From: Actinomyces sp. oral taxon 897
Lineage (GTDB): Bacteria; Actinomycetota; Actinomycetes; Actinomycetales; Actinomycetaceae
Direction of reading: 5' to 3'
Assembly: GCF_002999235.1 (NCBI RefSeq)
Contig: NZ_CP027236.1
Coordinates: 2,480,001 to 2,544,000, forward strand
Length of the DNA stretch: 64,000 nt
Shown piece by piece: positions 5,279 to 48,254 of the stretch (position 1 is its first letter; each line of letters starts with the position of its first letter). The position numbers and the translations under genes were made by a program. The notes under the pieces are model-generated. The model made no database searches. It saw nothing but the letters and a program-made list of their open reading frames with translations, and was not told where the DNA came from.

Positions 5279-6195
5279 GAGTCGGCCCTCCCGGTGGTGA
5301 GGGCGTCGGGGGTCTCCCTCCGCGGGGCGGGGGTGGTGCCGGTCCCCTCGGTGGTGAGGGCGTTCCCGGGCTCGGAGCCCCTGGGTGCCACGCCCGGCGC
5401 CACTGCGTCGGGGGCCGGCTCCGAGGTGGGTCCGGGGTTCCCGAGGGCCGGGGTGGCTGCGTCGACCGGCTTCCGGCCCTGGGCGCGCAGGACCGCCGCG
5501 GAGACCGCCGTCGGGTCCCCGCCCGCCAGCTCCTCGACCACCCGGCCCGCCGCCATGACCAGGACCCGGTCGGCGCGGGCCGCGGCGGCGGGGTCGTGGG
5601 TGACCATGAGGAGCGTGGCCCCCTCGGCGGCGATCTGGTCGAACCACTCCAGGACGTCCTGGGAGGCGGCCAGGTCCAGGGCGGCCGTGGGCTCGTCGGC
5701 CAGGACGATCTGGGGGCGGGCCGCCAGGACCCGGGCGATAGCGACCCGCTGGCGCTCACCGCCGCTCATCTGGGAGGGCATGTGGCGGGCCTGACCGGCC
5801 AGCCCCACCCGGGCCAGGGCGGCGTCCACCTGCCCCCGGCGCAGCCGCCGGCCCCGCAAGCGGCCGGGCAGGGCCACGTTGTCGCGGGCGTTCAGGCAGG
5901 TGACCAGGTTGTCCTCCTGGAAGACCATGCCCACGTGCGCGGCCCGGAAGGAGGCCAGGGCGCCCGGCCGCAGGGCCGTCGTCTCCCGGCCCAGCAGACG
6001 GACCGAGCCCGAGGTCGGGTGGTCCAGGCCCGCCACGCAGGTCAGCAGGGTCGACTTGCCGCAGCCCGAGGCCCCGACCACCGCCGTGAAGGAGCCGGGT
6101 GCCAGGTCCAGGTCCACGCCCGCCAGCGCCACCACGCGCTCGTGCCGACCCGGCACCGGGAAGGAGCGCGTCAGGGCGCGCACGCTCACGCTCAC
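5275..6195 (-). CDS. ABC transporter ATPase subunit (module A)
   Basis: A complete ABC ATPase: Walker A GASGCGKS, Q-loop VFQEDN, signature MSGGERQRVA, Walker B IVLADEPTAALD and switch His in VTHDP. It resembles the LolD/MacB type and powers the overlapping permease. A GTG start before SVSVRALTRSF gives 306 residues. The frame stays open far upstream, including an ATG at 6465 that would add a Pro/Ala-rich leader of about 90 residues, but that leader has no ABC features. The protein has an unusual Pro/Thr/Ala-rich C-terminal tail of about 70 residues. The 5' end faces the histidine kinase gene, so the intervening DNA probably holds divergent promoters. Confidence 0.86.
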   Translation of the reverse strand: MSVSVRALTRSFPVPGRHERVVALAGVDLDLAPGSFTAVVGASGCGKSTLLTCVAGLDHPTSGSVRLLGRETTALRPGALASFRAAHVGMVFQEDNLVTCLNARDNVALPGRLRGRRLRRGQVDAALARVGLAGQARHMPSQMSGGERQRVAIARVLAARPQIVLADEPTAALDLAASQDVLEWFDQIAAEGATLLMVTHDPAAAARADRVLVMAAGRVVEELAGGDPTAVSAAVLRAQGRKPVDAATPALGNPGPTSEPAPDAVAPGVAPRGSEPGNALTTEGTGTTPAPRRETPDALTTGRADS

Positions 6196-6463
6196 GGCCC
6201 CGCCAGCTGCGCTGGCCGCACCGGCCGCGCCAGCTGTGCCCGGGGTGGGGGCGCCCGGTGCCGGGGCTGAGCTGGCCGGTGCCGGGACGGTCCTGCTGGC
6301 GGGCTCCCCGGCCGGGGGCGTGTCCGCGTGGGACCCTGCGTAGGGCGTGTCCACGTAGGGCGCGCCCGGGGCGGGAGGGGGCCAGGCGGCCCCTGACCGG
6401 TGTCGTGGTCGGGGCCCGGCCGAGGGCGGGACCCAGGACGAGAGGGACTGTGCTGAGAGAACC

Positions 6464-8329
6464 ATGAGCCCAGTACATGCCGCCGTCGCGCGGTCGTCAC
6501 TGGTCCTGGCTCCCCAGCTGGGGTCGGGTGGTGTGGTGCTGGGACCCACCTCCTGGCTGGAGGACCGTGGGGCACTCGTGGAGCCAGGTGGAGTGACGTC
6601 GCCCTGTGGAGCCGTTAGCGTCATTGGCGTGTCCGCACCGAACTCGTCAGCCACCGCACCTCCTGCAGCCCCTGGGCCGAGCACGCCCTCGGCAGCTCCG
6701 ACGTCCGCCAACGTCCGGGAAGGCGACGGCGTCGACGCCAGACCAGTTGAGGCACCTCGTGCTCCCACGGGTAGTGCGTCAATGGCCTCGTCTCCGGCCT
6801 CCACCGGGCCGGTCTCCCCGGAGCCGAGCGACCCGGCCGTGCCGACTGACCCGGGTGCTGACGGTCCGGACAGGCCGCCCGGGATCTGCACGGCCCAGGT
6901 GCGTCCGGCGTCGCGTACCAGGATCGTCCTCAATGAGCTCCTCAACGCCGTGGTCTGGATGCCGGTGCTCATGGTCATGACCCTCGGCGTGTTCCTGGTC
7001 CACCTCACCGTCCCCGCCCTGGCCCAGGCGGAGCGCTGGCGGGCCCGGCGGCTGGGCGCCCCCGCCACCAGCGGCCGGGCGGCGGGTGAGCGCCTGGCCC
7101 CCTGGATGGCCGCCCGGATGACCACCCCCGGCTTCTGGCGCTCGGACCTGCCGGTCGCGGTGGCCGGGTTCCTGCTGAGCACGGTCAGCTTCGCCGCAGC
7201 CTTTGCCGGCGGGATCATAGCCGTGGTGCTCGTGCTCATGCCCTTCGTCGTCTCCCGCAGGTCCCCCGCGGTCATAGGGAGGGCCACCGTCACCTCCGGG
7301 CTCGAGGTGTGGTGGACCCCCCTGGTGGGGGTGCTGGTCCTGGTGCTGGTCCTGGTCGTGCTCCTGGGGGTCGGGGTGCTGCGGCTGCGTGTGGTCACCG
7401 TGCTGAGCCGGGACCGGGAGCGGGAGCGGGCCGAGGCGCTCGCGGCCGAGGTCGGCAGCCTCCAGCGAGGACGGGCCACGCTCGTGGACGCCTTCGAGGC
7501 CGAGCGGGCCCGTATTGAACGCGACCTCCACGACGGCGCCCAGCAGCGCCTCACCGCCCTGACCATGGGCCTGGGGGCCGCCCAGCTCACGGTATCCCGG
7601 CTCGAGACCGGCCTGGCCGGGGGTGAGGGGGCCAGCGGGGCAGAGCCCACCGGGGCCAGCTGGTCGTCCGGTGGACCGGCCGGGACCGGTGGACTAGCCG
7701 GGGGTGCGTCTGTCACCGGCCGCCTTGACGGGGCTGCTGGCGCCCGCGCCGGGGAGAGGCCGGGGACGCGGCCCACGACCGGCGTCCGTGCCGGGGGCGC
7801 GGCGGGTGACCTGGCGCCGCTGGTCAGGCAGCTCAGCACCCAGCTGGAGGCCGTCCAGGGGCAGGCCGAGGCCGCCCTGGCCGACCTGCGCGCCACCGTC
7901 CGCTCCGTGCGACCCGTCGTCCTGACCGAGCGGGGCCTGGTCGCCGCCGTCCGTGAGCTCGCCGCCACCAGCGGCCTGGAGGTGGAGGTGGACTGCCAGG
8001 GGGAGGACTCCGCCATCTCCTCACCGGTGGCGACCGCCGTCTACTTCGCCCTCGCCCAGGCCCTGGCCAATGTGGCCGCCCACGCCGGGACCCGGCAGGC
8101 ACGGCTCTCACTGGTCTGCTCACCCACCGGGGTCAGGGCGGTGGTGGCCGACGACGGCGTCGGCGGCGCGGTCCCGGGCCAGGCCCGGTCGGGCGCCGGT
8201 GGCACCGGCCTGGCCGGGATGGTCCAGCGCCTGGCCACGGTCGGCGGCAGCCTGGAGGTGGACTCACCGCCCGGGGGCGGGACGCGCCTGGTGCTGGAGG
8301 CCCCGGCCCTGCCCCCGTGGGCAGAGTGA
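6464..8329 (+). CDS. NarL/LiaS-type sensor histidine kinase
   Basis: The C-terminal two thirds is a HisKA_3/HATPase kinase. Phospho-acceptor His356 lies in ERDLHDGAQQRL, an N-box-like ALANVAAHAGT follows, and the G-box region reads GVGGAVPG then GGTGLAGM. Three or four membrane helices precede it (near residues 160-185, 225-260 and 285-310), with almost no external domain, as in intramembrane-sensing kinases. About 55 Gly/Thr-rich residues are inserted between the dimerisation helix and the ATPase domain. The start is uncertain: the first 140 residues are low-complexity, and a GTG at 6629 or an ATG at 6782 are alternatives. It is paired with the response regulator downstream and flanked by two ABC exporters. 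Confidence 0.85.
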   Translation: MSPVHAAVARSSLVLAPQLGSGGVVLGPTSWLEDRGALVEPGGVTSPCGAVSVIGVSAPNSSATAPPAAPGPSTPSAAPTSANVREGDGVDARPVEAPRAPTGSASMASSPASTGPVSPEPSDPAVPTDPGADGPDRPPGICTAQVRPASRTRIVLNELLNAVVWMPVLMVMTLGVFLVHLTVPALAQAERWRARRLGAPATSGRAAGERLAPWMAARMTTPGFWRSDLPVAVAGFLLSTVSFAAAFAGGIIAVVLVLMPFVVSRRSPAVIGRATVTSGLEVWWTPLVGVLVLVLVLVVLLGVGVLRLRVVTVLSRDRERERAEALAAEVGSLQRGRATLVDAFEAERARIERDLHDGAQQRLTALTMGLGAAQLTVSRLETGLAGGEGASGAEPTGASWSSGGPAGTGGLAGGASVTGRLDGAAGARAGERPGTRPTTGVRAGGAAGDLAPLVRQLSTQLEAVQGQAEAALADLRATVRSVRPVVLTERGLVAAVRELAATSGLEVEVDCQGEDSAISSPVATAVYFALAQALANVAAHAGTRQARLSLVCSPTGVRAVVADDGVGGAVPGQARSGAGGTGLAGMVQRLATVGGSLEVDSPPGGGTRLVLEAPALPPWAE

Positions 8330-8528: not shown

Positions 8529-8623
8529 GGCGTGCCCGCGTCCGGCCCGGGGGCGTGGGAGCAGGAGCAGTGAGGCTGCACCGACGAGAGGGCGTGCCCG
8601 CGTCCGGCCCGGGGGCGTGGGAG
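8529..8623 (+). repeat. 33-bp direct repeat upstream of the response regulator
   Basis: A 33-base sequence starting ggcgtgcccgcgtccggccc occurs identically at 8529-8561 and 8591-8623, 62 bp apart. The second copy ends 10 bases before the response regulator ATG and supplies the gggag/ggag stretch that serves as its ribosome-binding site. The duplication therefore carries a copy of the gene's own leader. Confidence 0.8.
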
Positions 8624-8632
8624 GATGCGGGC

Positions 8633-9670
8633 ATGAGGATCGTGCTCGCTGACGACGCCGCCCTCCTGCGTGAGGGGCTGGCCGGGCTCATGACCGCAGC
8701 CGGGCACGAGGTGGTCGCCCAGGCCTGTGACGCCCCGGAGCTGGTGGAGACGGTCACCGCCCTCGGTGGGAGCGGCGAGCTGCCCGACGTCGTCGTCACC
8801 GACGTGCGCATGCCCCCCACCCGTACCGACGACGGCCTACGTGCCGCCCTGGACCTGCGCTCCCGCTTCCCCGGCCTGCCTGTGGTGGTCCTCTCCGCCT
8901 ACATTGCGGGCGCCTACGTCCGTGACCTCCTGGCCGACGACGCCGGGGGCGTGGGCTACCTCCTCAAGGAGCGGGTGGGGCGGGTGGCCGACTTCATGCG
9001 CTCCCTGGAGGTCGTGCGCTCGGGGGGAGTGGTCGTGGACCCCGAGGTGGTCAGCCGCCTGCTCGGCCCGCTCCGCCCGCGTCATGACGGGGGTCCGGGG
9101 GCCGAGGGCGTGGAGGCCGATGCTGGCGGTGTGGGGGCTGGCACCAGCGGTGCGGGGGCTGGCGGTGTGGTGACCGACGCCGGGGAGCCGGGAGCTGGCA
9201 CCAGCGGTGCGGGGGCTGGCCTCGGGGGGCCAGAGGCCGGCGGCCGTGGCGCGAGGGGGCCTCGGGGGTCCGGGGGCCTGAGAGGAGCCGGGGATACGGC
9301 AGGAACCGGAGGGGCGGCAGGAGCCGGGCCGGGTGGTGGTGCAGGCGGTGGTGCGAGGGCCAGTGCGGGCGGTGGCACCCGGGCGCGGCGACTTGGCCCC
9401 CGGCCAGCGAGCCCCCCGCCTCAGGGAGCCGTGGACCAGGAGGCCGCGGCGGCGTCGGTCCTCACCAAGCGGCTCACAGCCCGTGAGCGGCAGGTCCTGG
9501 CCCTCATGGCCGAGGGCGCCTCCAACCCCCAGGTCGCCGCCCGGCTCTACGTCTCCGAGGGGGCAGTGGCCAAGCACGTGGCAAGCATCTTCCTCAAGCT
9601 CGACCTGCCGCCGGGGGAGGAGAACCGGCGCGTGCGAGCCGTCCTGACCTGGCTGCGGGCCAGTACCTGA
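8633..9670 (+). CDS. NarL/FixJ-family response regulator
   Basis: A 345-residue protein. Receiver domain residues 1-130 have the acidic pair Asp7-Asp8, phospho-acceptor Asp57 in VVTDVRMPP and conserved Lys in YLLKER. A LuxR-type helix-turn-helix occupies about the last 65 residues (LTARERQVLALMAEG and SEGAVAKHVASI). Between them lies a linker of about 130 Gly/Ala-rich residues containing a repeated GAGTSGAGAG motif, much longer than the usual 15-25 residues in this family. The ATG at 8633 begins MRIVLADD, has an upstream GGAG and fits the domain start. It is the partner of the upstream kinase and the likely regulator of the adjacent ABC operons. Confidence 0.9.
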   Translation: MRIVLADDAALLREGLAGLMTAAGHEVVAQACDAPELVETVTALGGSGELPDVVVTDVRMPPTRTDDGLRAALDLRSRFPGLPVVVLSAYIAGAYVRDLLADDAGGVGYLLKERVGRVADFMRSLEVVRSGGVVVDPEVVSRLLGPLRPRHDGGPGAEGVEADAGGVGAGTSGAGAGGVVTDAGEPGAGTSGAGAGLGGPEAGGRGARGPRGSGGLRGAGDTAGTGGAAGAGPGGGAGGGARASAGGGTRARRLGPRPASPPPQGAVDQEAAAASVLTKRLTARERQVLALMAEGASNPQVAARLYVSEGAVAKHVASIFLKLDLPPGEENRRVRAVLTWLRAST

Positions 9671-9763
9671 GGGGTCGGCAGGCGCCGCAGACGTGAGGTC
9701 GTCGGCAGCGCGGGCCCTGAGGGGCCGATACGACCCGACCTGCCCGGACGGCCCGCGCAGGCC

Positions 9764-11176
9764 TCACACGGGCTGGCGGAGCCGGTCCATGACGGGGCGG
9801 CGGTCGAGCTGGGCGGGCAGCCAGGTGGTGGCCACGGCGAGCACGAGCACCACTCCGATCACCGGCGTGAGCGTGTCCAGCGGCAGCACAGCAAGGAAGG
9901 TGCTCACCCCGCCCCCGGAGAGCAGGGCGGTGCCGGCGGCGCTCAGGACGGTGTCGGCCAGTCCGAACAGGATGCCGGTGACGGCGTAGATACTGCCCTC
10001 CAGGATCGTGGTGGTCGTGAGCGTGGAGCGCCTGGCCCCGATGACACCCAGCAGGGCGCCCTCCTGGCGCCTCGTGGAGCCGACCATGGCGATATTGGCC
10101 ACGCCCCCCACCCCCGAGATCGCGAAGATCGGCACGGCAATGGCCAGGAACCCGCTGACGCCCTCAGTGGAGCCAGCGGTCCGAAAAGCCCCGACGACGG
10201 TGTAGACGACCCCGGTCATCCCCACGGCGATGCCGAAGGGGACGACCGTCGTCAGGCTCATGGTGGAGCGGTGGCGCGCGTTGGCCCGCGCGGCGAACCA
10301 GGCCGGGCTGCGTCCGGGGACCAGGGCGGTCCAGCCCGTCAGCAGGGGCCGGATGGTCCAGTTGGGGACGCACAGGGCAGCGACCATGACGAGCAGCACA
10401 ATGCTGCCGCCAAGAGCCTGTGTGAACCCCTTAATGCTGCCCATCTCCTTAAAGGCGGCAGCCGCCTCAGGCTCAACCCCCTTGACGAGGCCAGCGAGCT
10501 CTGTCGGGCCGACCAGCGCGATCACCAGGGCGAACGCGGCCCCCACCACGAGGATGCCCGCGACGACCCACTGCCAGGCACGGGTGCGGGCCACAGGGGT
10601 GGCGGCCTCGCGCAGGGCCTGCATCTCAGGGGTGGAGGCGGCGCGACGGGCCGCGCCCAGGCCACCCAGGAGGCTGAAGGCGGTGGTGACCCCGACGGCC
10701 AGGGGCACGGCGAAGAAGGGCACGACCACGGGCATGTCGGTGGGGTAGATGTGGAGGTCGCGCCAGGTGAGCAGGTACCAGCCGGTGGCCGGCAGGGCGA
10801 GGAGGGAGCCGAGCAGGCCGCCGAGGAGGCCGACCGCGCCGACCTGGGTCAGGATAATGCTGCGGACACGCTGGCTCGGGACGCCGACAATCTTCCACAG
10901 GGCGTGGGAACGGGCCTGTGCGGTCACGGTCAGCGCGAGGGTCGTGGAGACAATGAGGGCGACGGACAGGCCCGCGTAGCCGAGCAGGCTCGAGCCCACG
11001 ACGTGCGTGGCCGTGACGTACTCCGAGGCGTCGGCCTGGGCGGTGGACCACTGCAGGGCGCTCCACCAGGAGGTGATAATGACGCCGATGAAGACGCCGC
11101 CGGTGGTGGCCACCAGGAGCGACCACAGCCACTGACGGGCGTGGTGGCGCAGGTCCTTCCAGATGAGTGCGGTCAT
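9764..11176 (-). CDS. FtsX-like ABC transporter permease (module B)
   Basis: 470 residues with the same architecture as module A. An N-terminal membrane helix after MTALIWKDLRHHARQW is followed by two groups of helices with an extracytoplasmic section between them. N-terminal similarity to the module A permease (LIWKDLRHHARQWLW against LLLADLRRHAGTWVW) points to an ancient duplication. It converges with the response regulator gene. It is the membrane half of an exporter with the ATPase 21 bases upstream. The substrate is unknown; peptide antibiotics or lipids are the usual cargo of such FtsX-type systems. Confidence 0.86.
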   Translation of the reverse strand: MTALIWKDLRHHARQWLWSLLVATTGGVFIGVIITSWWSALQWSTAQADASEYVTATHVVGSSLLGYAGLSVALIVSTTLALTVTAQARSHALWKIVGVPSQRVRSIILTQVGAVGLLGGLLGSLLALPATGWYLLTWRDLHIYPTDMPVVVPFFAVPLAVGVTTAFSLLGGLGAARRAASTPEMQALREAATPVARTRAWQWVVAGILVVGAAFALVIALVGPTELAGLVKGVEPEAAAAFKEMGSIKGFTQALGGSIVLLVMVAALCVPNWTIRPLLTGWTALVPGRSPAWFAARANARHRSTMSLTTVVPFGIAVGMTGVVYTVVGAFRTAGSTEGVSGFLAIAVPIFAISGVGGVANIAMVGSTRRQEGALLGVIGARRSTLTTTTILEGSIYAVTGILFGLADTVLSAAGTALLSGGGVSTFLAVLPLDTLTPVIGVVLVLAVATTWLPAQLDRRPVMDRLRQPV

Positions 11177-11197
11177 TGGGAGTCAGCCTCTTTCCTC

Positions 11198-11959
11198 TCA
11201 GCGGCCGGGGGCCTGAGCGGGCGGGCGTGCGGGCACGCGGGTGGAGTGGACCAGCTCGGCGATACGGGCGGCGTCGTGGCTGTCGGACCAGGCGAGCAGG
11301 TGACCCCCGCCCATGACCGCCACGGCGTCGGCCCGGGCGGCGGCCTCGACGTCGTGGGTGACCATGACGACGGTCGTCCCGCGCTCGGCCAGGCGACGCA
11401 GCCAGTCCAGGACCACCTGCCCGGCGTTCAGGTCCAGGGCGCCGGTGGGCTCGTCGGCGAAGACGATCCTGGGCCGGGTGGCCATCACCCTGGCGATCGC
11501 CACCCTCTGGCGCTCGCCGCCGGAGAGCTGGTGGGGCCTGAGGTCGGCGCGGCCGGCCAGCCCCACGGCCTCCAGGGCGGCCACCGCCTGGCCCCCGCCC
11601 AGGGGGTGACCGGCCAGGCGGGAGGGCATGGAGACGTTCTCGGCGGCGGTCAGGGAGGCAATGAGGTTGTAGTCCTGGAAGACGAATCCCACGTTGCGGC
11701 AGCGGAAGGCGGCGCGCTCGGCCGGGGCCAGGGAGGTGATCTCCGTACCCAGGAGACTGACCCGCCCGCCGGTGGGCTCATCCAGCCCCGCCATGGTGTG
11801 CAGCAGGGTCGACTTACCCGACCCCGAGGCGCCCACCACGGCGGTGAAGCTGCCTGTGGGCAGGTCGAGATCCACCCCGTCCAGGGCGGTCACCCACACG
11901 TCCCGCCGCCCGGGGACCTCGTAGACGCGGGTCAGGCCCCGCGCCGAGACCGCGCTCAC
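11198..11959 (-). CDS. ABC transporter ATPase subunit (module B)
   Basis: A 253-residue ABC ATPase: Walker A GASGSGKS, Q-loop FVFQDYN, signature LSGGERQRVA, Walker B IVFADEPTGALD and MVTHD. It is close to the module A ATPase in sequence. The GTG start before SAVSARGLTRVYEV gives the standard length; the frame remains open upstream and in-frame GTG codons exist around 12080, so the N-terminus is uncertain. It is cotranscribed with the permease behind it, with a 21-base gap containing an AGAGGAAAGAGGCTGAC ribosome-binding region. Confidence 0.86.
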   Translation of the reverse strand: MSAVSARGLTRVYEVPGRRDVWVTALDGVDLDLPTGSFTAVVGASGSGKSTLLHTMAGLDEPTGGRVSLLGTEITSLAPAERAAFRCRNVGFVFQDYNLIASLTAAENVSMPSRLAGHPLGGGQAVAALEAVGLAGRADLRPHQLSGGERQRVAIARVMATRPRIVFADEPTGALDLNAGQVVLDWLRRLAERGTTVVMVTHDVEAAARADAVAVMGGGHLLAWSDSHDAARIAELVHSTRVPARPPAQAPGR

Positions 11960-24800: not shown

Positions 24801-25971
24801 TATGGCCGGAATTAAACAAGATCGGTGTGTGGTGGTGTGGTTGGGAGGTGCTCGAGGTCGTAGTCGAAGGTGCGGTTGGTGATGTAGGTGGTGAAGGCCG
24901 TGAAGGTTTTCTCCGGGGTGTCGCGTTGGAGGTTGGCGATGTTGTTCTTGGCGGCGTCCCGTACGTGTTCCGTGGGGTTGTGGTCGGGGGCGTAGGGGGG
25001 AAGGTAGATGGGTGTTATGCGTTCCAGGGCCTGGCCGGGGGCGTAGAGGTCGGTCAGGGCCCTGGCGTGGTGGAACCTGGCGTTGTCCAGGACGACGGCG
25101 ATCTTCTTTCCCTCCTCGGTCTCGCGTTGGAGGCGGCCCCGTCATGAGGATGGTCTGCTCGGTGTTCTGGTCTCCCTCGATGGGGTAGATCCTCATTCTC
25201 CTGGTCGTCAGGCTCAGCGCCCCGAAGAACGACTGGCTCGCCTTCTCACGGTCCACGTACAGCCTTGTCCTCCTCCCGGGGAGGCCACGTGCGCCTTGTC
25301 TCGGCCTCGTGGCGGGCGCGGACCTCGTCGACGGTGTAGACCTCCCAGCCCTCCTGGAGCAGGTCGTTGACCTGGTGCCGGGTCCCGGTCATCCGCCTGG
25401 TGACGGCCTCCTCGTCGCGGCGCCCCCCGAACGGGTCGGGGCAGCAGAGGCTCATTCCCAGGAAGCGCATGAGCAGCAGGTCAGGAGGAGTCCGACCTGT
25501 ACTCGACTCCGAATCCTGTCTGCACGACGTCCCTGAGGGCCGGGACGTCCCAGAAGGCGGCCTTGACTCCCGACTCCGAGGGCGGCTTACTGAGAATCTC
25601 CTCCAGCTCCTCCTTCTGCGCCCTCTTGAGTTTTGCGGCGTTCTCGTTTCCGGCGTGACCGGTCACCACGGATCCCAGCCTGTACCTCCGCCATTCCGAG
25701 AGCCACTCGCGTACCGTCTTCTCGGTCCGCTCAACCATCTCCGCGATAATGTCCAGGCCGACGCCACGGGCGGCGTACACAATCGCCTCCGCCCCCGTCC
25801 GCACAAGCTTGTAGGTGTCCGAACGCTTCTTCCACCTGATGAGGACGTCCCGCTCCCCGCCCGTCACGTCGACCCGCACAAGACCACCCCTGTACGAGAT
25901 ACTCCGCAGACGTCAACCAGGAACCCCGCAGAAGCCACCCCAGAATACCGTTTTGGTTAATTCCGGCCATA
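24801..25971 (-). mobile_element. IS630-type insertion sequence, decayed
   Basis: The ends are perfect 15-bp inverted repeats (tatggccggaattaa at 24801-24815, complement at 25957-25971), and the similarity continues for several bases. Both ends carry TA, the target duplication made by IS630/Tc1-type elements, so the element proper spans about 24803-25969. It carries one transposase gene on the minus strand, which is frameshifted. It has inserted into low-GC DNA. Confidence 0.85.
24830..25879 (-). pseudogene. IS630-family transposase, frameshifted
   Basis: Fragments in several minus-strand frames reassemble one transposase. An N-terminal helix-turn-helix part lies at 25481-25879 (TEKTVREWLSEWRRY). 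The catalytic-core start is at 25246-25470 (VYTVDEVR, first Asp). It continues as FFGALSLTTRRMRIYP, and the last part reads in another frame as VLDNARFHH followed by YLPPYAPDHNPTEHV (second Asp and Glu region). At least three frame breaks, near 25475, 25262 and 25140, make an active enzyme unlikely. Confidence 0.85.
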
Positions 25972-26306: not shown

Positions 26307-29134
26307 GTGTCGAAGAGGAAGCTCATTGAGGTCGCGCTCCCCCTCGACGCCATTAACGCGCAGTCTGCCCGCGAGAAGTCGATCCGCAAGGGCCACCCGT
26401 CAACACTCCACCTGTGGTGGTCGCGGAAGCCGACGGCCACGGCGCGGGCGGTCCTCTTCTCCCAGCTGGTGGACGACCCCTCGGAGCGCTACGAGGAGTT
26501 CCGCGAGGCGGCGGCCGCCAGCGGCGAGGCCGACCCGGACGAGGCGGCCCGGAGCAGGGTGCTCTCCGAGCGGCAGCGGCTGTTCACCCTCATCACCCGC
26601 CTGGTGGACTGGGACAGCATCGGGGATGAGCACCTGCTGCGGGAGGCCCGGGAGGAGATCCTCCGCTCGACGGACGGTGAGCCCCCGGCGATCCTCGACC
26701 CCTTCGCGGGAGGCGGATCGATCCCCCTGGAGGCGCAGCGCCTCGGCCTCGAGGCCCGGGCCTCTGACCTCAACCCCGTGGCCGTCCTCATTAACAAGGC
26801 GCTCATTGAGATCCCGCCGCGCTTCGCCGGGCGCCCGCCCGTGTTCCCCGGCGCCGACGACGGCACCCGCCCCTGGCCGGGCGCCCACGGCCTGGCCGAG
26901 GACGTGCGCCGCTACGGGGAGTGGATGCGCCAGGAGGCCTACCGCCGCATTGGCCACCTCTACCCTAGGGCTAAGCTTCCCGACGGCAGCGAGGCGACCG
27001 TTATCGCGTGGATCTGGGCCCGGACGGTGACCTGCCCGAACCCAGCCTGCGGTATTGAGATGCCGCTCGTCTCCAAGTGGTGGCTGGGGAAGAAGAAGGG
27101 CAAGGAGGCCTACATTGTTCCGACGGTCGTGGGCGACCATATTGAGTACTCTATAGGGCACGACCCCAAGGAGGCGCCGACCAAGGAAAACGACGGAACT
27201 ATCTCAGGCCGTCGCGGGTCGATATGTCTTGCCTGTAGAAGCTCCATATCTATGGATTATATTCGCGCTCAAGGCCGGAGCGGATCCATGGGGGCGCATC
27301 TTGTGGCTCTGGCATGCGAGGGGCATAGATCTAGGATCTATGCCGCACCGACACGTGATCATGATGTTGCGGCCGCGGTCTCTCCTCCTTCCGGGATGCC
27401 TAATAGGAGGATTGCTGATAATCCTCGCTGGTTCTCCTCGCCGATGTACGGATTCAGTACTTTCGACTCGCTGTTCACTCCGCGGCAGGCCGTAGCGCTC
27501 ACCACCTTCTCAGATCTCGCGGGGGGGGGCGCGATCAGGTGCTCGCCGACGCGCTCGCCGCCGGGCTCCCCGAGGGGGAGCGCCTGGAGGAGGGCGGGTC
27601 GGGCGCCGCCGCCTACGCGGACGCTGTGGCGACGTACCTGGGTTTCGTTGTCTCCCGTCTTTCTGACTATTCTTCCTCTCTCAATACCTGGGCGAGCAAC
27701 CCGCAGATGGAGATCCTGCGGAACGTCTTCGCGCGCCAGGCGCTGCCCATGGCGTGGGATTTTGCGGAAGGGAACCCCTTCGCCGCGTCGTCGGGGAGCT
27801 TGGCCATTATGGTCCGCGCAGTGTCGCAGTCCATCGAGAAAGTTCCTGCGAAGGGTAGCTATGTGGTCGAGCAGGCCGACGCCGCCTCCCGCGGCTACTC
27901 GAACGCCGTCATATCGACCGACCCTCCCTACTACGACAATATTGGCTACTCGGACCTGTCCGACTTCTTCTACGTGTGGCTCCGCCGCTCCCTGCGCAAT
28001 ATCCACCCGCACCTGCTCTCCACGGTGCTCGTACCCAAGGAGGAGGAGCTCGTCGCCAACCCCTACCGCCACGGCGGCAAGGAGGGCGCCCGCGAGTTCT
28101 TCGAGCACGGCTTCGAGGACGTCTTCGCCCGTGCGCGCCAGGGCGCGAACCCGGACTACCCCGTCACCGTCTACTACGCCTTCAAGCAGTCCGAGACCTC
28201 GAAGGCGGGCCGCACCTCCACCGGCTGGGCCACCATCCTCAGCGCCATTATCCGCTCCGGGTGGACCATTACCGCCACCTGGCCCATGCGCTCCGAGCGC
28301 GGCGGGCGCATGACGAGCGTGGGCACCAACGCCCTGGCCTCCTCCATAGTCCTCGTCCTGCGACCCCGCCCCGAGGACGCCCCGGCCACCGACCGGCGCG
28401 CCCTGGTGCGCGAGCTGCGCTCCACCCTCCCCGAGGCCGTGGAGACACTGCGCTCCGGGGGCGTCGCCCCCGTGGACCTCGCCCAGGCGGCCATCGGCCC
28501 CGGCATGAGGGTTTTCTCCGGGTACACGCGCGTCATTAGCCCGGACGGGACCGACATGAGCGTCGACGACGCCCTCGCCCAGATCAACGCCGTCCTCGAC
28601 GAGGTCCTCACCGACCAGGACGACGACCTCGACCCCGACACCCGCTGGTGCCTCGCCTGGTACGAGGACCACGGCTTCGACGCGGGCCCCTACGGAGAGG
28701 CCGAGACCCTCGCCTCGGCGCGCAACGCCTCCATCGACGGCCTGCGCCGCGCCGGCGTCCTCACCGCGGGCGGCGGCCGCGTCCACCTCATCGACCCCCA
28801 GTCCCTCCCCGCGGACTACGACCCCCGGACCGACGACCGCGTCTCCTGCTGGGAGGTCGTCCTCCACCTCGCCCGGGCCCTGGAGGCCACCGGCCTCGAC
28901 GGGGCCGGGCGGCTGCTCGCGGCGGCCCGCGAGCGCGGCCTGGACGGCGAGGTGCTGCGCTCACTGGCCTACCGCCTCTACTCCCTGGCGGAGCAGGGAG
29001 GTAGGACGGAGTCCGGCGTCCTGTTCAACGCGCTCGGCAGCTCCTGGCCGGAGATCAAGGCGGCCGCCCGCCCCACCACGACAGCCCCCGGCGGCCAGAC
29101 CGCCATCGACCTCGGCGCCCTCGAGGAGTACTGA
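26307..29134 (+). pseudogene. DUF1156-type adenine DNA methylase, split at a poly-G tract
   Basis: Two overlapping frames make one protein of about 940 residues. The first part starts at GTG 26307 behind GGAAGGA with SKRKLIEVALPL and HPSTLHLWWSRKPTATAR, typical of DUF1156 proteins. It has the SAM-binding motif LDPFAGGGSIPLEA (Asp131) and a Cys pair CPNPACG likely to bind zinc. It leaves frame after nine Gs at 27521-27529. The second part (open from 27539 to the TGA at 29134) carries the catalytic DPPYYDN motif near 27920. One added G or two lost would join them. Two explanations fit: slipped-strand phase variation or a homopolymer sequencing error. As read it is off. It is followed one base later by the DUF499 gene. 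Confidence 0.85.
27521..27529 (+). repeat. nine-G homopolymer in the methylase gene
   Basis: An uninterrupted run of nine Gs sits exactly where the methylase reading frame breaks. Lengths of 7 or 10 would restore it (7 gives ...LAGGRDQV, 10 adds one Gly). Such tracts are hot spots for slippage both in cells and in sequencing. Confidence 0.9.
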
Positions 29135-29135
29135 C

Positions 29136-32100
29136 ATGCCCGCGCCCTCCAACCACGCCCGCGTCGGCGAGGCCATTGTGATCCTGGCCAAGGTGCTCGG
29201 CCCCTGGATCACCCAGGTCCTCCAGGGCCGGATCCCGGCGAACACGACGTGGCCGGAGCTCCTGGAGGCCAAGGACGGCTACCCCTCCGGCAGGCGGTAC
29301 AGCGCGGGTGACCTGCAGTGCCAGCTGCGGATCATTACCGAGCGCGTCGGCGGCCTCGGCTTCCTCTTCAGCGGGATCCTCTCCCGCGGCGAGCAGAACC
29401 TGGCCGGGGAGCTGCGCGAGGTCCGCAACACCTGGGCGCACTCCACCCAGTTCAGCGCCGACGACGCCTACCGCGCCCTGGACACCGCCGAACGACTCCT
29501 CAAGGCCGTCAGCGCCCCACAGGCCGCCGCCCGCGTCCGCCAGCTGCGCCTCGACGTCCAGCGCAGCACCTACGAGGCGGCCGCGCGCCGTGACACGCGC
29601 GCCGCCGCCGTCGCCATGCCCGGCCTCGGGGAGGACGGGCTCGCCCCCTGGCGCGAGGTGGTCCGCCCCCACAGCGACATCGTGTCCGGGGACTTCGGGC
29701 AGGCCGAGTTCGCCGCCGACCTCCACCAGGTCGCCCAGGGCGAGGGCGCTGAGGAGTACGTGTCCCCGACCCGCTTCTACGAGCGCACCTACCTCACCGA
29801 GGGCCTCAAGACCCTCCTGCGGATGAGCGCCAGGCGCCTGGGCGGGGACCGCAACGCCCAGGCGGTCATTAACCTGCAGACGACCTTCGGGGGCGGCAAG
29901 ACCCACTCCATGCTCGCCGCCTGGCACCTGGCGGGCGGCACACCGCTGAGGGAGCTCCCACAGGAGGTGCAGGACCTCCTTAAGGACTACCCGCTGCCCG
30001 ACCACGTCAACCGGGTCGCCGTGGTCGGCAGCGAGATCTCCCCCGGCCAGCCCTCCACCAAGCCCGACGGGACGGTCGTCAGCACCCTGTGGGGCGAGCT
30101 CGCCTGGCAGCTCGGCGGCGCCGAGGCGTACGAGACCCTCGCCCAGGCCGACCGCACCGGCACCAACCCGGGTCGCGCCCTGCGGACCCTCCTGGCCCGT
30201 TACGCCCCCGTCCTCGTCCTCATTGACGAGTGGGTCGCCTACGCGCGGGGCCTGTACCGGCGTGACGACCTCGTCGGGGGGAGCTTCGACACCCAGTTCA
30301 CCTTCGCCCAGGAGCTCACCGCCGCCGTCCAGGGGACGCCCGGGGCCCTCCTGCTGGTGTCCATCCCCGCCTCCGACGTCCGCGATGGCACTATGACCCG
30401 GGCCTCCGAGCTGGAGATCGGCGGGGAGGGCGGGCGCGAGGCGCTCCAGCGCCTCCAGCACGTCGTCGCCCGTGTTGCCCACAACTGGAGCCCGGCCACC
30501 TCCGGGGAGAGCTTCGAGATCGTCCGCCGCCGGCTCTTCGCGGACCTCGACGCCGAGGCCACCCGCAGGCGCGACGCCACCGTCAAGCACTTTATGACCT
30601 ACTACAGGCACCAGCGCGGCGAGCTGCCCCGGGAGACCTTCGAGATCGACTACGAGAGGCGCCTGCGTGCCGCCTACCCGATCCACCCCGAGCTCTTCGA
30701 CAGGCTCTACGGGGACTGGTCCTCCCTGGAGCGCTTCCAGCGCACCCGCGGCGTCCTGCGCCTCATGAGCGCCGTCGTCCACTCCCTGGTCCGGGCCGGC
30801 GACGACTCCCCGCTCATTATGCCCGGCTCCGTGCCCCTCGACGACGCCGCGGTCCGCGACGAGATCGCCAGCTACCTGGACGACGCCTGGCGCACCATTA
30901 TCGAGAAGGACGTCGACGGGGAGAGGGCCACGCCGCTGCAGATCGACCGCGACCGCCCGCTCTTCGGCAAGCGGGCCCTGACCCGCCGTATCGCCCGGGC
31001 GCTGTTCCTCGGCTCGGCGGCCACGCTCGACTCCGCCCACAAGGGGATCGAGCGGGAGCAGCTCTTCCTCGGCGTGGCCATGCCGGGTGACACGCTGGGG
31101 AACTTCGGCTCCTCGCTCCAGCTCCTCACCGACCGGGCGACCTACGTCTACACCGAGGGGAGCCGCAGCTGGTACGACCGGCAACCGTCGATCAACCGCA
31201 TGGTCATTGACCGCGCCGACGCCCTCGAGGCGGAGGACGTCGCCCAGGCCGGGGTCGAGGTGCTCCGGGGCCTGGCCGGGACCGCCCCGGAGTTCAGCGC
31301 CGTGGACGTCGCCCCCACCTCCACCGGGGACGTGCCCGACTCGCCCAGCACCAGGCTCGTCCTCCTCCACCCGCGGCACACGGTCGGCGGGAGGGCGACC
31401 GCCCTGACCGGCCCCGGCACGGAGTTCGCCAGCGAGCTCCTCGGTCGGCGGGCCTCCGCCCCCAGGGTGAACACGAACGCCCTCGTCCTGCTCGCCCCGG
31501 ACAAGGAGCGCTGGAACGACGCCGACCACGCCCTGCGCCTCTACCTGGCGTGGTCGGAGATGGCCGGCCCCGACTCCGTGCGCGCGCACGACCTCACCCA
31601 GAGCCAGGCGGCGCAGGCCCGCGGCAAGGCGGACGAGGCGCGTGCCGCCGCGGAGCGGGCCGTCTCCGCCGCGTGGCTCTGGGCCCTCTACCCCGTCCAG
31701 CCCGACGGCTCCCGCCCCTTCACCATTGAGGGGACGCGCGTGGACGGCTCCGAGCCGCGTGCGGCCGTGCGCGCCGGGACCAGGCTCGGTAAGGAGGACG
31801 TCGTCCTCACCTCGGCCACGGCCACGACCGTCGCCCTCCAGCTCAACGGCCCCAACCTGCGGGCGAGGTGGAACGAGGGGAGGATCACCGCCGCCGAGCT
31901 GTGGAGCATCTTCACCCGCTACCCCTACATGCCCCGCCTGCGTGACGAGAGGGTCTTCCTCGCCGCGGTGTCGAGCGTCATGGACGACATAGGCTGGGAG
32001 ACCACCGGGCTCGGGTTCGCCCTGGCCGGCGGGTACGACCCTGAGCGCGGCGACTTCACGGACCTGCGCATCCCCCTGGAGGACGAGACCCCGCAGGTCA

Positions 32101-32528
32101 CCGGGCAGACGGTCCTGGTCTCCCCCGCCCTGGCCCGCGCCCAGCGCAGGCGGGAGGAGGCCGAGCGGGCGCGTCCCCAGGAGCAGACCGGCCGGGACCC
32201 GGCGGCGTCCGCTGACGCGGAGGGGCCCCGCACCCCGCGCCCCGGTCCTGGGGGCCGGTCCGCCCGCCCGGGACCGGGGCGGGCCAGCGCGGACGGCACC
32301 CGGTTCAGGGGCGCCGCCGAGCTGGACCCGACCGGCGACGTCGCCGCCCAGCTCACCGCCCTGGCCGAGGAGATCCTCGTGCACCTCCAGCGCGGGGCGG
32401 ACAGCCTCGAGATCGCCGTGAGCATTGACGCGACCCGCCGCGGGGGGTTCGACCGGGACACCGTCCGCACCGTCACCGAGAACGCGCGCGTGCTCGGCCT
32501 CAAGCCGGGACGGTTCACGGAGGGCTGA
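29136..32528 (+). CDS. DUF499-family ATPase with N-terminal Swt1-HEPN-like domain
   Basis: 1130 residues. Residues about 10-125 resemble the Swt1-type HEPN domain and contain RNTWAH (Arg97 to His102), an RX4H motif of the kind used by HEPN ribonucleases. A P-loop follows, TTFGGGKTHS near residue 250, then Walker B PVLVLIDEWVAYA near 360, as in DUF499 proteins. A Pro/Arg/Gly-rich linker near 1000-1065 leads to a small C-terminal domain. DUF499 and DUF1156 genes recur side by side in defence islands; here the ATG is one base after the methylase stop, so the two form one operon. It may act as the effector or motor of an antiphage module, inferred from context only. Confidence 0.82.
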   Translation: MPAPSNHARVGEAIVILAKVLGPWITQVLQGRIPANTTWPELLEAKDGYPSGRRYSAGDLQCQLRIITERVGGLGFLFSGILSRGEQNLAGELREVRNTWAHSTQFSADDAYRALDTAERLLKAVSAPQAAARVRQLRLDVQRSTYEAAARRDTRAAAVAMPGLGEDGLAPWREVVRPHSDIVSGDFGQAEFAADLHQVAQGEGAEEYVSPTRFYERTYLTEGLKTLLRMSARRLGGDRNAQAVINLQTTFGGGKTHSMLAAWHLAGGTPLRELPQEVQDLLKDYPLPDHVNRVAVVGSEISPGQPSTKPDGTVVSTLWGELAWQLGGAEAYETLAQADRTGTNPGRALRTLLARYAPVLVLIDEWVAYARGLYRRDDLVGGSFDTQFTFAQELTAAVQGTPGALLLVSIPASDVRDGTMTRASELEIGGEGGREALQRLQHVVARVAHNWSPATSGESFEIVRRRLFADLDAEATRRRDATVKHFMTYYRHQRGELPRETFEIDYERRLRAAYPIHPELFDRLYGDWSSLERFQRTRGVLRLMSAVVHSLVRAGDDSPLIMPGSVPLDDAAVRDEIASYLDDAWRTIIEKDVDGERATPLQIDRDRPLFGKRALTRRIARALFLGSAATLDSAHKGIEREQLFLGVAMPGDTLGNFGSSLQLLTDRATYVYTEGSRSWYDRQPSINRMVIDRADALEAEDVAQAGVEVLRGLAGTAPEFSAVDVAPTSTGDVPDSPSTRLVLLHPRHTVGGRATALTGPGTEFASELLGRRASAPRVNTNALVLLAPDKERWNDADHALRLYLAWSEMAGPDSVRAHDLTQSQAAQARGKADEARAAAERAVSAAWLWALYPVQPDGSRPFTIEGTRVDGSEPRAAVRAGTRLGKEDVVLTSATATTVALQLNGPNLRARWNEGRITAAELWSIFTRYPYMPRLRDERVFLAAVSSVMDDIGWETTGLGFALAGGYDPERGDFTDLRIPLEDETPQVTGQTVLVSPALARAQRRREEAERARPQEQTGRDPAASADAEGPRTPRPGPGGRSARPGPGRASADGTRFRGAAELDPTGDVAAQLTALAEEILVHLQRGADSLEIAVSIDATRRGGFDRDTVRTVTENARVLGLKPGRFTEG

Positions 32529-44719: not shown

Positions 44720-45694
44720 ATGGCAAGCCAGGGATCGCATGTTACCGCACTTGTGCGCACCCACGCCTCGGGTGACGAAGAGGCTTTCTATGCCGTAGCC
44801 CTCCAGGCGGCGGCACGCGAGGCCCGCCAAGGTCACCATCATCTTGCGGCCAATATTAAAAAGGCGGTCGAGTCCTCGAGAGGGAGCCGACGGACTCAGC
44901 TCGCCAAAGTGACAAGGCTGCCTCGTTCCCAGAATGACGTCACCGACCTCATAGAGGTCTCTTATCCTCAGGTGTCCCTGCGCGACCTCGTCATCGCCCC
45001 CGATCTTGCCGCGCAGGTCGTGCAGGTTATCCAGGAGCAGAGGCAACGAGCAGTGCTGGCCGAGCACGGATTTACTCCCATGCACCGACTGCTACTCGAA
45101 GGTCCTCCCGGTACCGGCAAGACCATGACGGCATCTGTGATCTCCTCCGAGCTTTCCCTGCCTATGTGCACAGTTCGTCTTGACGGACTCCTCAGCAAAT
45201 TCATGGGGGAGACGGCATCGAAACTGCGGACGATCTTTGAGACCGTCGCTTCCCAGCGCGCGGTCTACCTTTTTGATGAGTTCGACGCGCTTGGCGGAGA
45301 TAGGGGAGGTAATGACGTCGGAGAGGCTCGGCGTATTCTCAATACCTTCCTCATGTTCCTGGAAGACGCTGGTTCCGATTCTATCGTCATTGCAGCCACC
45401 AACCATCGTTCCATTTTGGACCGAGCGTTGTTCAGGCGGTTCGATGCGGTTCTCACCTACTCCTTGCCGGACGCTCAGCAGGCGCAGTCGGTCATTCGTA
45501 AGCGTCTAGGTTCCCTGGTGAAGGGAGTAAGGCTGGGTGGGCTGGTATCGTTCACCGAGGGGCTTAGCCATGCCGACCTTGTCAAGGCGGCGGAGTCCGC
45601 TGCCAAGAGCGCACTCATGCGCGGAGATACTGCTGTGACCCGCAAGGACATTGAAACAGCTCTTTCGGCACGTCGATTGGCGAGCCTAAGGTAA
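44720..45694 (+). CDS. ietA: AAA+ ATPase, IetA-like
   Basis: 324 residues. An N-terminal helical part (1-105) precedes one AAA+ module of the FtsH/CDC48 type. Walker A is EGPPGTGKTM (Lys134), the pore-loop region contains KFMGET, Walker B is VYLFDEFDAL (Asp186, Glu187), sensor 1 lies in VIAATNH, and arginine fingers in RALFRRFD. The gene is followed by a subtilisin-like protease whose ATG is ten bases after this stop. An ATPase/S8-protease pair of this kind is the IetAS antiviral system described in a 2020 survey of defence genes. The role here is inferred from that arrangement and the CRISPR neighbour. GC content is lower than that of the chromosome around it. A strong AAGGAGGGG ribosome-binding site supports the ATG. 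Confidence 0.82.
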   Translation: MASQGSHVTALVRTHASGDEEAFYAVALQAAAREARQGHHHLAANIKKAVESSRGSRRTQLAKVTRLPRSQNDVTDLIEVSYPQVSLRDLVIAPDLAAQVVQVIQEQRQRAVLAEHGFTPMHRLLLEGPPGTGKTMTASVISSELSLPMCTVRLDGLLSKFMGETASKLRTIFETVASQRAVYLFDEFDALGGDRGGNDVGEARRILNTFLMFLEDAGSDSIVIAATNHRSILDRALFRRFDAVLTYSLPDAQQAQSVIRKRLGSLVKGVRLGGLVSFTEGLSHADLVKAAESAAKSALMRGDTAVTRKDIETALSARRLASLR

Positions 45695-45704
45695 GGTGAG
45701 CAGT

Positions 45705-48254
45705 ATGCTGAGGCACGACGACCTTGAACATCTTTACGTACAGAACCGTGTTGATCGAAAGGGCTTTGCCAGACACGGAGGAGGAACTCAAAGCGTCAGA
45801 CCAGTGTGCCGGTACCCGCATGGCAATCGTCTTTTAGGAGAAGCAAAAACAGTCTTTGCGGCCGCAGATACCGTCCGCAGTCAGGCATGCTTGGATGAGT
45901 CTCTACGCGCTAATGGCGTAATCCTGGTCCTTGAAGGTTGGGGTGCTGGTTTCAACCTCCGACTTAATTCTTTAACAAGAACGGCAAGAGGTAGGCATGC
46001 CCTGAGGGTGCCTCAGTGGCTTCTTCTGTCTGCCCGTCCCGCGACAGACGAGCATCCAGAGACCGCCACCATCTGGGTGGCTGATAAATTTCGGTCAAGA
46101 TTTCTCAAGCTCTTTGAAGACTATCTCAATAAAGAGCGAGCGAAAACAGGTAAACCGTGCAACAATGCCCTTGTCGCTAATATTTCACGAATCCGAGATG
46201 TTTTTTTGAAGGATCTGTGGACCTCCGGGGGTGACCCTGAACGTGACAAGTCCACTTGGTGGGAGCTCTGGCTCGACATCGGAAGAGGGAAGCCAGATCT
46301 TCTTGACAAGGTTTTGAAAGCCTATCGCCTGGAGAGGCTCGATAGGCAAACGCAGATCGGTACCTCTCGTATTACCTATGTCCGTGCCACGTGGAAGCAG
46401 CTCGAATCGCTATTGGTTACGGATCTGCCGCTCACCGAGATCCGCAAGCCGTCGTTTATGCTTGACACTATTGAGGATCTCAGTGACGACGAAAAAATGG
46501 AGTACGTTCTCGATCTAGCGAGCCGAGTGCGCCCAGCCCTTGCGGATGCGCCTGTAGTCTGCCACCTTGACACCGGTATATTTCGCGAGCATCGGCTCCT
46601 TTCCGGTTCGGTGGCGAGCTCTGATCTATACAGTCTTGGAAATTTCTCTGACGGGATCGATCGTGCAGGCCATGGTACGTCTATGGCTGGTATTGCGCTC
46701 TACGGCGACCACTTGGATGCACTCCTGACAGGAACCCAACAGGTAGATCTACGACATCGTTTGGAATCGGTGCGAATTCTGGACGGGAGAAAACGGTCGA
46801 CTTCTCAGCCGAGCACTCCTCGAGATAACGCAAGCACTACCATCCAGGCAGTATCTTTGCCGGAGACTGTGATGCTACGACAACGTGTGTACTGCATGCC
46901 GGTCAGCGCTGAGTCTGATGCGGATCCGGGTCAGCCGACACTGTGGTCGGCCGCCATAGATGCCCTTGCTGCGGGCACAGATATCGTCGTCGATGACGAC
47001 ACAGTAAGTCTTATCTCAGAACCAGATGCTGACGTCTCCCGTCTCATTGTCATTTCTGCTGCGAACGTCGGTAACTACGTGGATGACTATCTAGCCAACT
47101 CAGACATTTCGTGTATCGAAGACCCTGGTCAGTCTTGGAACGCCTTGACAGTTGGCGCCTATACTGATATGGATTGGTCGCCAGCTGATCCTACATACCG
47201 AGGCTACCGACCTCTTGCTGTCCGCGGTGACCTCTCCCCGCATAGCCGTACCTCCATGCTCTTTGGGACCAGCTCCTGGCCGATAAAGCCGGAGATCTGC
47301 ATGGAGGGAGGTAACGCACTCACTGACGGCAAGGGTCCAATCGAGGACAGTCACCCTCTTCTGTCTCTGCGCTCAACAGGCATTAATAGTGATGTCGCGC
47401 TTACCTCTGCCAATGCAACGAGCGCTGCGACTGCCCAGGCGGCTCGTCTTGCTGCTCTCGTCATGGACCGATACCCCTCATACTGGCCCGAGACAGTTCG
47501 AGGTCTTCTTGTTCACGAGGCTCAGTGGACCAAGGCGATGCAGGATCGAATTGATGCTTGCGGCCGAAAGAAGCGGAAAGTGGTGCAACTGCTCCGTCGG
47601 TACGGCTGGGGCGTTCCCACTGAAGATTCTGTACTCCACTCTTCCTCTGATGCGGTCACCATGATAGTTCAGGGCGAGTTCAACCCCTTCGATGAGGACT
47701 GGACGATGCGAGAGCTTCGCCTGCATGCCCTTCCCTGGCCACGAGAGGTGCTTCAAGATCTCGGGGCAAATGATGTGTGCCTGCGTATCACGCTCTCCTA
47801 CTTCATCGAACCCTCTGCCACGCGGCGCGGCTGGAAGGGAAGGTACACCTACCGATCTCACGGGTTGCGTTTTGATCTTCAAGGGCCTACTGAGAATTCA
47901 GAAGAGTTTCTTGCAAGAATTAATCGACAAGCACAAAACGAGAAGGGCGGAGCGGATTTTGTGAGGCCGCATTGCTCGCGGCGCTGGCTCCTTGGCGAGG
48001 AGGCGCGGAACTGTGGCTCCCTCCATCAGGACCAGTGGACAGGCGCGGGGGCTGAGCTTGCTACGTGTGACCACGTGGCGGTCTATCCCGTTGGAGGATG
48101 GTGGAAAAACAATCGTCGTCAGGACAGACGGGACCTGCCCGTGAGGTATGCACTCCTGATCTCCCTGAGGACTCGTGCACAGGATGTGGACCTGTATACC
48201 CCGATCGCGACGCAGCTTGAGATCCCCGTGTCTGCAGTCCAGATCGAAATTTAA
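45705..48254 (+). CDS. ietS: subtilisin-like serine protease, IetS-like
   Basis: 849 residues. The S8 catalytic triad is visible: Asp289 in CHLDTGI, His323 in GHGTSMAGI, and Ser573 in ANATSAATAQAARL. About 280 residues precede the protease domain and about 200 follow it; no signal peptide is present, so it works inside the cell, unlike secreted subtilases. I chose the ATG at 45705 with AAGGTGAG upstream; a GTG at 45696 is possible. It forms an operon with the AAA+ ATPase. In the IetAS model the ATPase would sense infection or deliver substrates and the protease would cut a target, which is unproven here. The gene is AT-richer than the chromosomal average. Confidence 0.82.
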   Translation: MLRHDDLEHLYVQNRVDRKGFARHGGGTQSVRPVCRYPHGNRLLGEAKTVFAAADTVRSQACLDESLRANGVILVLEGWGAGFNLRLNSLTRTARGRHALRVPQWLLLSARPATDEHPETATIWVADKFRSRFLKLFEDYLNKERAKTGKPCNNALVANISRIRDVFLKDLWTSGGDPERDKSTWWELWLDIGRGKPDLLDKVLKAYRLERLDRQTQIGTSRITYVRATWKQLESLLVTDLPLTEIRKPSFMLDTIEDLSDDEKMEYVLDLASRVRPALADAPVVCHLDTGIFREHRLLSGSVASSDLYSLGNFSDGIDRAGHGTSMAGIALYGDHLDALLTGTQQVDLRHRLESVRILDGRKRSTSQPSTPRDNASTTIQAVSLPETVMLRQRVYCMPVSAESDADPGQPTLWSAAIDALAAGTDIVVDDDTVSLISEPDADVSRLIVISAANVGNYVDDYLANSDISCIEDPGQSWNALTVGAYTDMDWSPADPTYRGYRPLAVRGDLSPHSRTSMLFGTSSWPIKPEICMEGGNALTDGKGPIEDSHPLLSLRSTGINSDVALTSANATSAATAQAARLAALVMDRYPSYWPETVRGLLVHEAQWTKAMQDRIDACGRKKRKVVQLLRRYGWGVPTEDSVLHSSSDAVTMIVQGEFNPFDEDWTMRELRLHALPWPREVLQDLGANDVCLRITLSYFIEPSATRRGWKGRYTYRSHGLRFDLQGPTENSEEFLARINRQAQNEKGGADFVRPHCSRRWLLGEEARNCGSLHQDQWTGAGAELATCDHVAVYPVGGWWKNNRRQDRRDLPVRYALLISLRTRAQDVDLYTPIATQLEIPVSAVQIEI

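Follow-up and report, generated by a model that had tools for sequence, protein, structure and literature searches.

The hmaB–hmaC locus and its nine-G tract

The window analysed here, a 64 kb stretch of the genome of Actinomyces sp. oral taxon 897 (contig NZ_CP027236.1, positions 2,480,001 to 2,544,000), carries on its forward strand a frame-broken DUF1156 methylase gene, hmaB (26307..29134; PADLOC HmaB, Pfam DUF1156), and, starting one base after its stop codon, hmaC (29136..32528, forward strand), which encodes a Swt1-like HEPN and DUF499 ATPase. HmaB, HmaC (by PADLOC) and the HEPN-DUF499 partner are features shared with the Hma (helicase, methylase, ATPase) systems, described as Type-1 bacteriophage exclusion (BREX)-related (BR) systems (PMC8565338, PMC12839542), from which this locus differs in that it contains no HmaA helicase. 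As the initial annotation of the sequence had stated, the ATPase/HEPN partner is intact: hmaC is uninterrupted, carries its own GAGGAG motif, matches PDLC00662 (E-value 3.2e-249) and gives Pfam hits to DUF499 and HEPN_Swt1 only.

The first frame of hmaB begins with a GTG at 26307, preceded by GGAAGG, and encodes the S-adenosylmethionine (SAM) motif DPFAGGGS in the N half of the gene (26307..27520), beyond which it stays open in the wrong register as far as 28313, where it stops. The DPPYYDN motif lies in another frame, in the C half (27539..29134, PADLOC HmaB), which is open from the G run onward, and the site of the break is a tract of nine Gs (27521..27529), all three features being on the forward strand. 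A single PADLOC profile (PDLC00660) spans both frames, its positions 7–441 matching the first (residues 2–406; E-value 8.7e-136) and its positions 448–958 the second (residues 2–515; E-value 4.5e-189). As the profile positions continue from 441 to 448 across the tract, hmaB is a single gene split at this point. The break was thus correctly placed by the initial annotation at exactly nine Gs, with the two motifs in different frames, and its calculation that seven or ten Gs would restore the gene is also correct. Upstream of the tract, a divergent stretch of lower GC content (27181..27471, forward strand; 0.55 versus approximately 0.70 in both flanks) may represent a target-recognition region.

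The possibility of two separate half-proteins, which the initial annotation had named as evidence against a switch, was ruled out. The C half is encoded in 11 of 49 genomes of the genus, the source genome included, and nine of the ten others carry hmaB as one continuous frame of 949–1053 amino acids, while in the tenth (G034) the gene is likewise split, at a run of eight Gs (G8). Moreover, the only purine-rich sequence available as a start site for the C half is the G run itself.

The tract is the only G or C run of at least eight bases in the window (dinucleotide shuffles gave a mean of 31 matches), and a coarse GC-frame scan revealed no other suspicious frame change, although the coding sequence that it identified amounted to no more than 18.3 kb and the break in hmaB was itself missed. 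The 3.25 Mb genome contains 16 such runs (22 overlapping matches), six of them of nine bases, the hmaB tract included; of the remaining five nine-base runs, three are apparently intergenic, one (L110) lies just after an ATG and one (L112) lies in an open reading frame (ORF) that also contains a stop. In favour of an assembly or sequencing error in the tract, long homopolymers are prone to such errors, and the L110 run, too, is out of register with a nearby ATG. Against an error, all five G8 or C8 runs found within clearly coding sequence elsewhere in the genome keep the frame, and a long run, whatever its exact length, is present in the window and absent from the sisters inspected. In the latter, namely five relatives out of 12 loci and L011 (the seven minus-strand loci excepted), the site is in frame and holds no such run. 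On balance, an error is considered improbable.

Long runs in hmaB and its partner genes

To place the tract in a wider context, relatives of the locus were collected from 20 of 213 genomes matched in the family, 29 of 394 in the class, 22 of 396 in the order and 39 of 396 in the phylum, these sets overlapping and differing in E limits, and not every match becoming a locus. Added to these were a named set (the best 80 loci of at least 571), 14 viral loci and seven plasmid loci out of 66 matching records. The full count comprised 195 loci with 189 distinct hmaB, 139 hmaC and 94 hmaA genes, many of them partial; near-identical genes were counted once, by which the split hmaC of L263 and the split hmaB of L264 were dropped.

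G or C runs of 8–11 bases were found in ten of the 189 hmaB genes, at several sites, and six of these genes lose their frame at the run. Besides the window copy (G9), the latter are those of L134 (G034; G8) and L028 (a Corynebacterium metagenome-assembled genome; G9), both in the SAM motif, of L065 (Bifidobacterium colobi; G8) and L216 (G608; G9), both just before the SAM motif, and of L240 (G1121; G11, near the C end). The four in-frame genes are those of L135 (G010; G10 in the SAM motif), L182 (G561; a poly-C variant, C11 at 1968–1978, approximately 460 bases into the gene), L160 (G246; G8 in a partial gene) and L062 (Roseofilum; G8 in a stretch without a match to the query). When the presence of a run was mapped on a FastTree tree of 159 genes, nine changes were needed, at least six of them on well-supported branches. 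No hmaB of the viral contigs (14 loci) or of the seven fetched plasmid loci contained a run of at least eight.

The partner genes differ in this respect. Six runs of at least nine bases occur in hmaB and none in hmaC and hmaA (139 and 94 genes; p 0.007), and in five loci of 17.5–18 kb each (L028, L065, L134, L135 and L300) the hmaB run is the sole G or C run of at least seven bases. Genes in more than one frame number 13 of 189 for hmaB (one an insertion), 0 of 139 for hmaC and 1 of 94 for hmaA (L024). In a set restricted to full-length genes, 15 hmaB genes contained in-frame stops, of which L149, L039 and L218 (no frameshift) and L170 and L169 (partial or divergent) were dropped, leaving 10 of 135 frameshifted, as compared to 0 of 80 for hmaC. 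Among paired loci, a frameshift was present in hmaB in 6 of 73 (a raw count of seven included L039) and in hmaC in none.

Additional observations were made on hmaB in this collection. Transposase genes lie inside hmaB of two plasmids (L265, 6304–7629; L266, 2909–4000), where hmaC is annotated as whole or runs on, and such insertions are further ways of methylase loss. In G033 (L127), two hmaB copies stand head to head (5260–8106 on the minus and 8543–11434 on the plus strand) with 99.4% identity over their first 887 bases and a divergent middle, possibly reflecting two specificities. Finally, a pair of Rhodococcus opacus PD630 assemblies was set aside as evidence for switching and treated as an assembly difference: in the newer (L264), a difference of one base within four or five Gs splits hmaB, and the older (L263) lacks a break at that place and has a split hmaC.

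Tract lengths and the OFF register

The strongest single piece of evidence for switching is the comparison of G034 with G010, two species of the genus. Their hmaB genes are 91% identical, with 235 substitutions, 177 of which are at third positions, and the one internal indel is of two bases and lies in the tract, which is G8 (off) in G034 and G10 (on) in G010; there is no other stop. Across the 11.4 kb of hmaABC, alignment coordinates indicate no further indel that would alter the net frame of a coding sequence, and the G034 assembly consists of one contig at 96% completeness. Among the marks by which a phase-variable gene may be recognised, a long tract within the gene at the frame break is seen in the window hmaB, and differing tract lengths with the remainder conserved are seen at the level of the genus, in G034 and G010. 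Long G runs can in principle cause slippage, and the C half is open from the run onward; HmaB could be made at a low level despite the break if RNA polymerase or the ribosome slipped on the run. Nevertheless, the difference in tract length between two species of the genus at the homologous position points to slippage at the DNA level, and slippage during expression is considered very improbable.

In four loci (L028, L065, L134 and L300), hmaB is off while hmaA and hmaC are each in a single frame over nearly their full length, indicating that loss of HmaB is tolerated by its partners. This largely answers the concern, raised in the initial annotation, that an OFF methylase beside an intact partner would be a hazard. 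The phase variation proposed in that annotation is well supported at the level of the gene family, since runs have arisen repeatedly, on and off lengths occur within one genus and breaks at runs are seen in hmaB only; for the single window copy, it is likely. Taken together, hmaB of Hma systems rather probably acts as a contingency gene in several Actinomycetota, with the window copy in the OFF register.

Several observations weigh against this conclusion. The absence of the tract from sister species suggests that it is young in hmaB of the source species. Permutation of codons predicted more long runs than are found in both hmaB and hmaC, meaning that there is no absolute excess and that the case is based on the contrast with the partners, the coincidence with frame breaks and the repeated origin. 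The contrast itself is weaker at a threshold of eight bases, at which hmaA has no runs (0 of 94) but hmaC has five in 4 of 139 genes, all in frame, these being L085 and three Thermus plasmids that carry four G8 or C8 runs (L266 at 6161 and 8445, L267 at 7941 and L269 at 9072). With ten runs in hmaB and five in the partners, the difference per DNA length over all loci gives p 0.06; without the three plasmids it gives p 0.0016, although their removal was decided after they had been seen. Furthermore, only six of the 13 split hmaB genes are broken at a run of at least eight; those of L017, L027, L076 and L154 are broken away from long runs, and the remainder are L265 (the transposase insertion), L259 and L170.

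The loss of neighbouring genes at the window locus, where approximately 5.3 kb of downstream genes kept by six sister genomes are gone, also counts against a switch and fits one-way decay. According to this explanation, hmaB became dispensable once the downstream effector genes were lost, and a simple frameshift where the gene is most fragile produced a young pseudogene. However, both halves of hmaB are otherwise open, it differs from the sister genes mainly at third codon positions (though this mostly reflects the time before any recent loss), and the same pattern is observed in loci with whole hmaA and hmaC. Decay is judged unlikely, albeit the most serious of the alternatives to a contingency gene.

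For a contingency gene, the proposed mechanism is that a G (or C) run within the hmaB coding sequence would slip at replication, giving a population composed of ON cells with a full methylase and OFF cells with a truncated one. The methylase is probably required for Hma action, as BrxX/PglX is in BREX, where DNA binding by BrxX is described as necessary for defence and methylation alike (PMC11842806), so that the OFF state would silence defence and would not unleash the partners; silencing of the system is the most likely outcome. We infer that the switch is reversible in the source strain, that methylation is lost in OFF cells and that the whole system is then silenced. Since the first frame ends at 28313, approximately 820 bases before hmaC, and the full frame ends immediately before it, the OFF tract may lower hmaC translation as well. 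More broadly, and with the arguments for and against about evenly balanced in our estimation, Hma/BR across Actinomycetota may constitute a population-level bet in which hmaB repeatedly evolves slippery G or C runs, at differing sites, while the helicase and ATPase/HEPN genes remain whole. HmaB would then act as the licensing subunit, its loss shutting the whole system down without harm.

The hmaB gene of Hma systems, off in the window assembly, reads as a recurrent phase-variable gene comparable with pglX of Streptomyces coelicolor. In the Pgl (Type-2 BREX) system, as in the window, a G tract lies within the methylase gene of a phage-defence system, and changes in its length are reported to switch the gene (PMC4365076). 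Pgl differs in its methylase family, in its partners (PglW, PglY and PglZ) and in that its methylase is itself toxic without PglZ, unlike what is proposed for Hma; additionally, switching was measured in Pgl and is inferred here. An intragenic G tract in an actinobacterium is also described for a sortase-dependent pilus of Bifidobacterium, in which such tracts join two ORFs via replication slippage, although that is a surface structure rather than a defence system and its tract lengths were measured by deep sequencing (PMC9187656). No published statement of Hma phase variation was found among the records listed, judging by titles and the beginnings of abstracts, with most subscription journals outside the search; a search for DUF1156 with 'phase variation' returned no paper, and the string 'phase varia' is absent from the main text of PMC12839542.

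If the methylase flips while its partners stay whole, HmaB should be necessary for attack rather than a mere antidote. Genomes in which Hma has been counted as broken may carry a switchable system. Hma/BR is widespread, being reported in 26 phyla (PMC8565338) and, for Type 1 BR, in 2446 taxa (PMC12839542).

Neighbourhood and additional observations

The description of the locus as a two-gene module holds for the window but not for the sister loci, which are larger. The best match to the HmaA helicase profile in the genome (88 bits) is approximately 2 Mb distant from the locus, and the same profile matches all 14 control genomes. As regards the BREX proteins PglZ and BrxC/PglY (a DUF6079 ATPase), PADLOC gave no PglZ hit in the 11 proteins scanned, a subset of the window ORFs, and the Pfam hits of HmaC are to DUF499 and HEPN_Swt1 alone. 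Upstream of hmaB, an insertion-element-like stretch (24801..25971, minus strand) is bounded by a 15-bp inverted repeat and presumably encodes a transposase, the one ORF scanned having no Pfam match. In 2500 bases of the second contig of the genome, no match to a phage record was obtained.

Elsewhere in the source genome, the L110 run (1501–1509; G000:C1:1457534) is a C9 that immediately follows an ATG, in a register other than that of the TPR-like ORF downstream, making this another candidate slippery gene; its matches in the genus were shorter than 50 bases and too short for comparison. Within the window itself, PADLOC matches to IetA and IetS at 44720–48254 indicate a second defence system.
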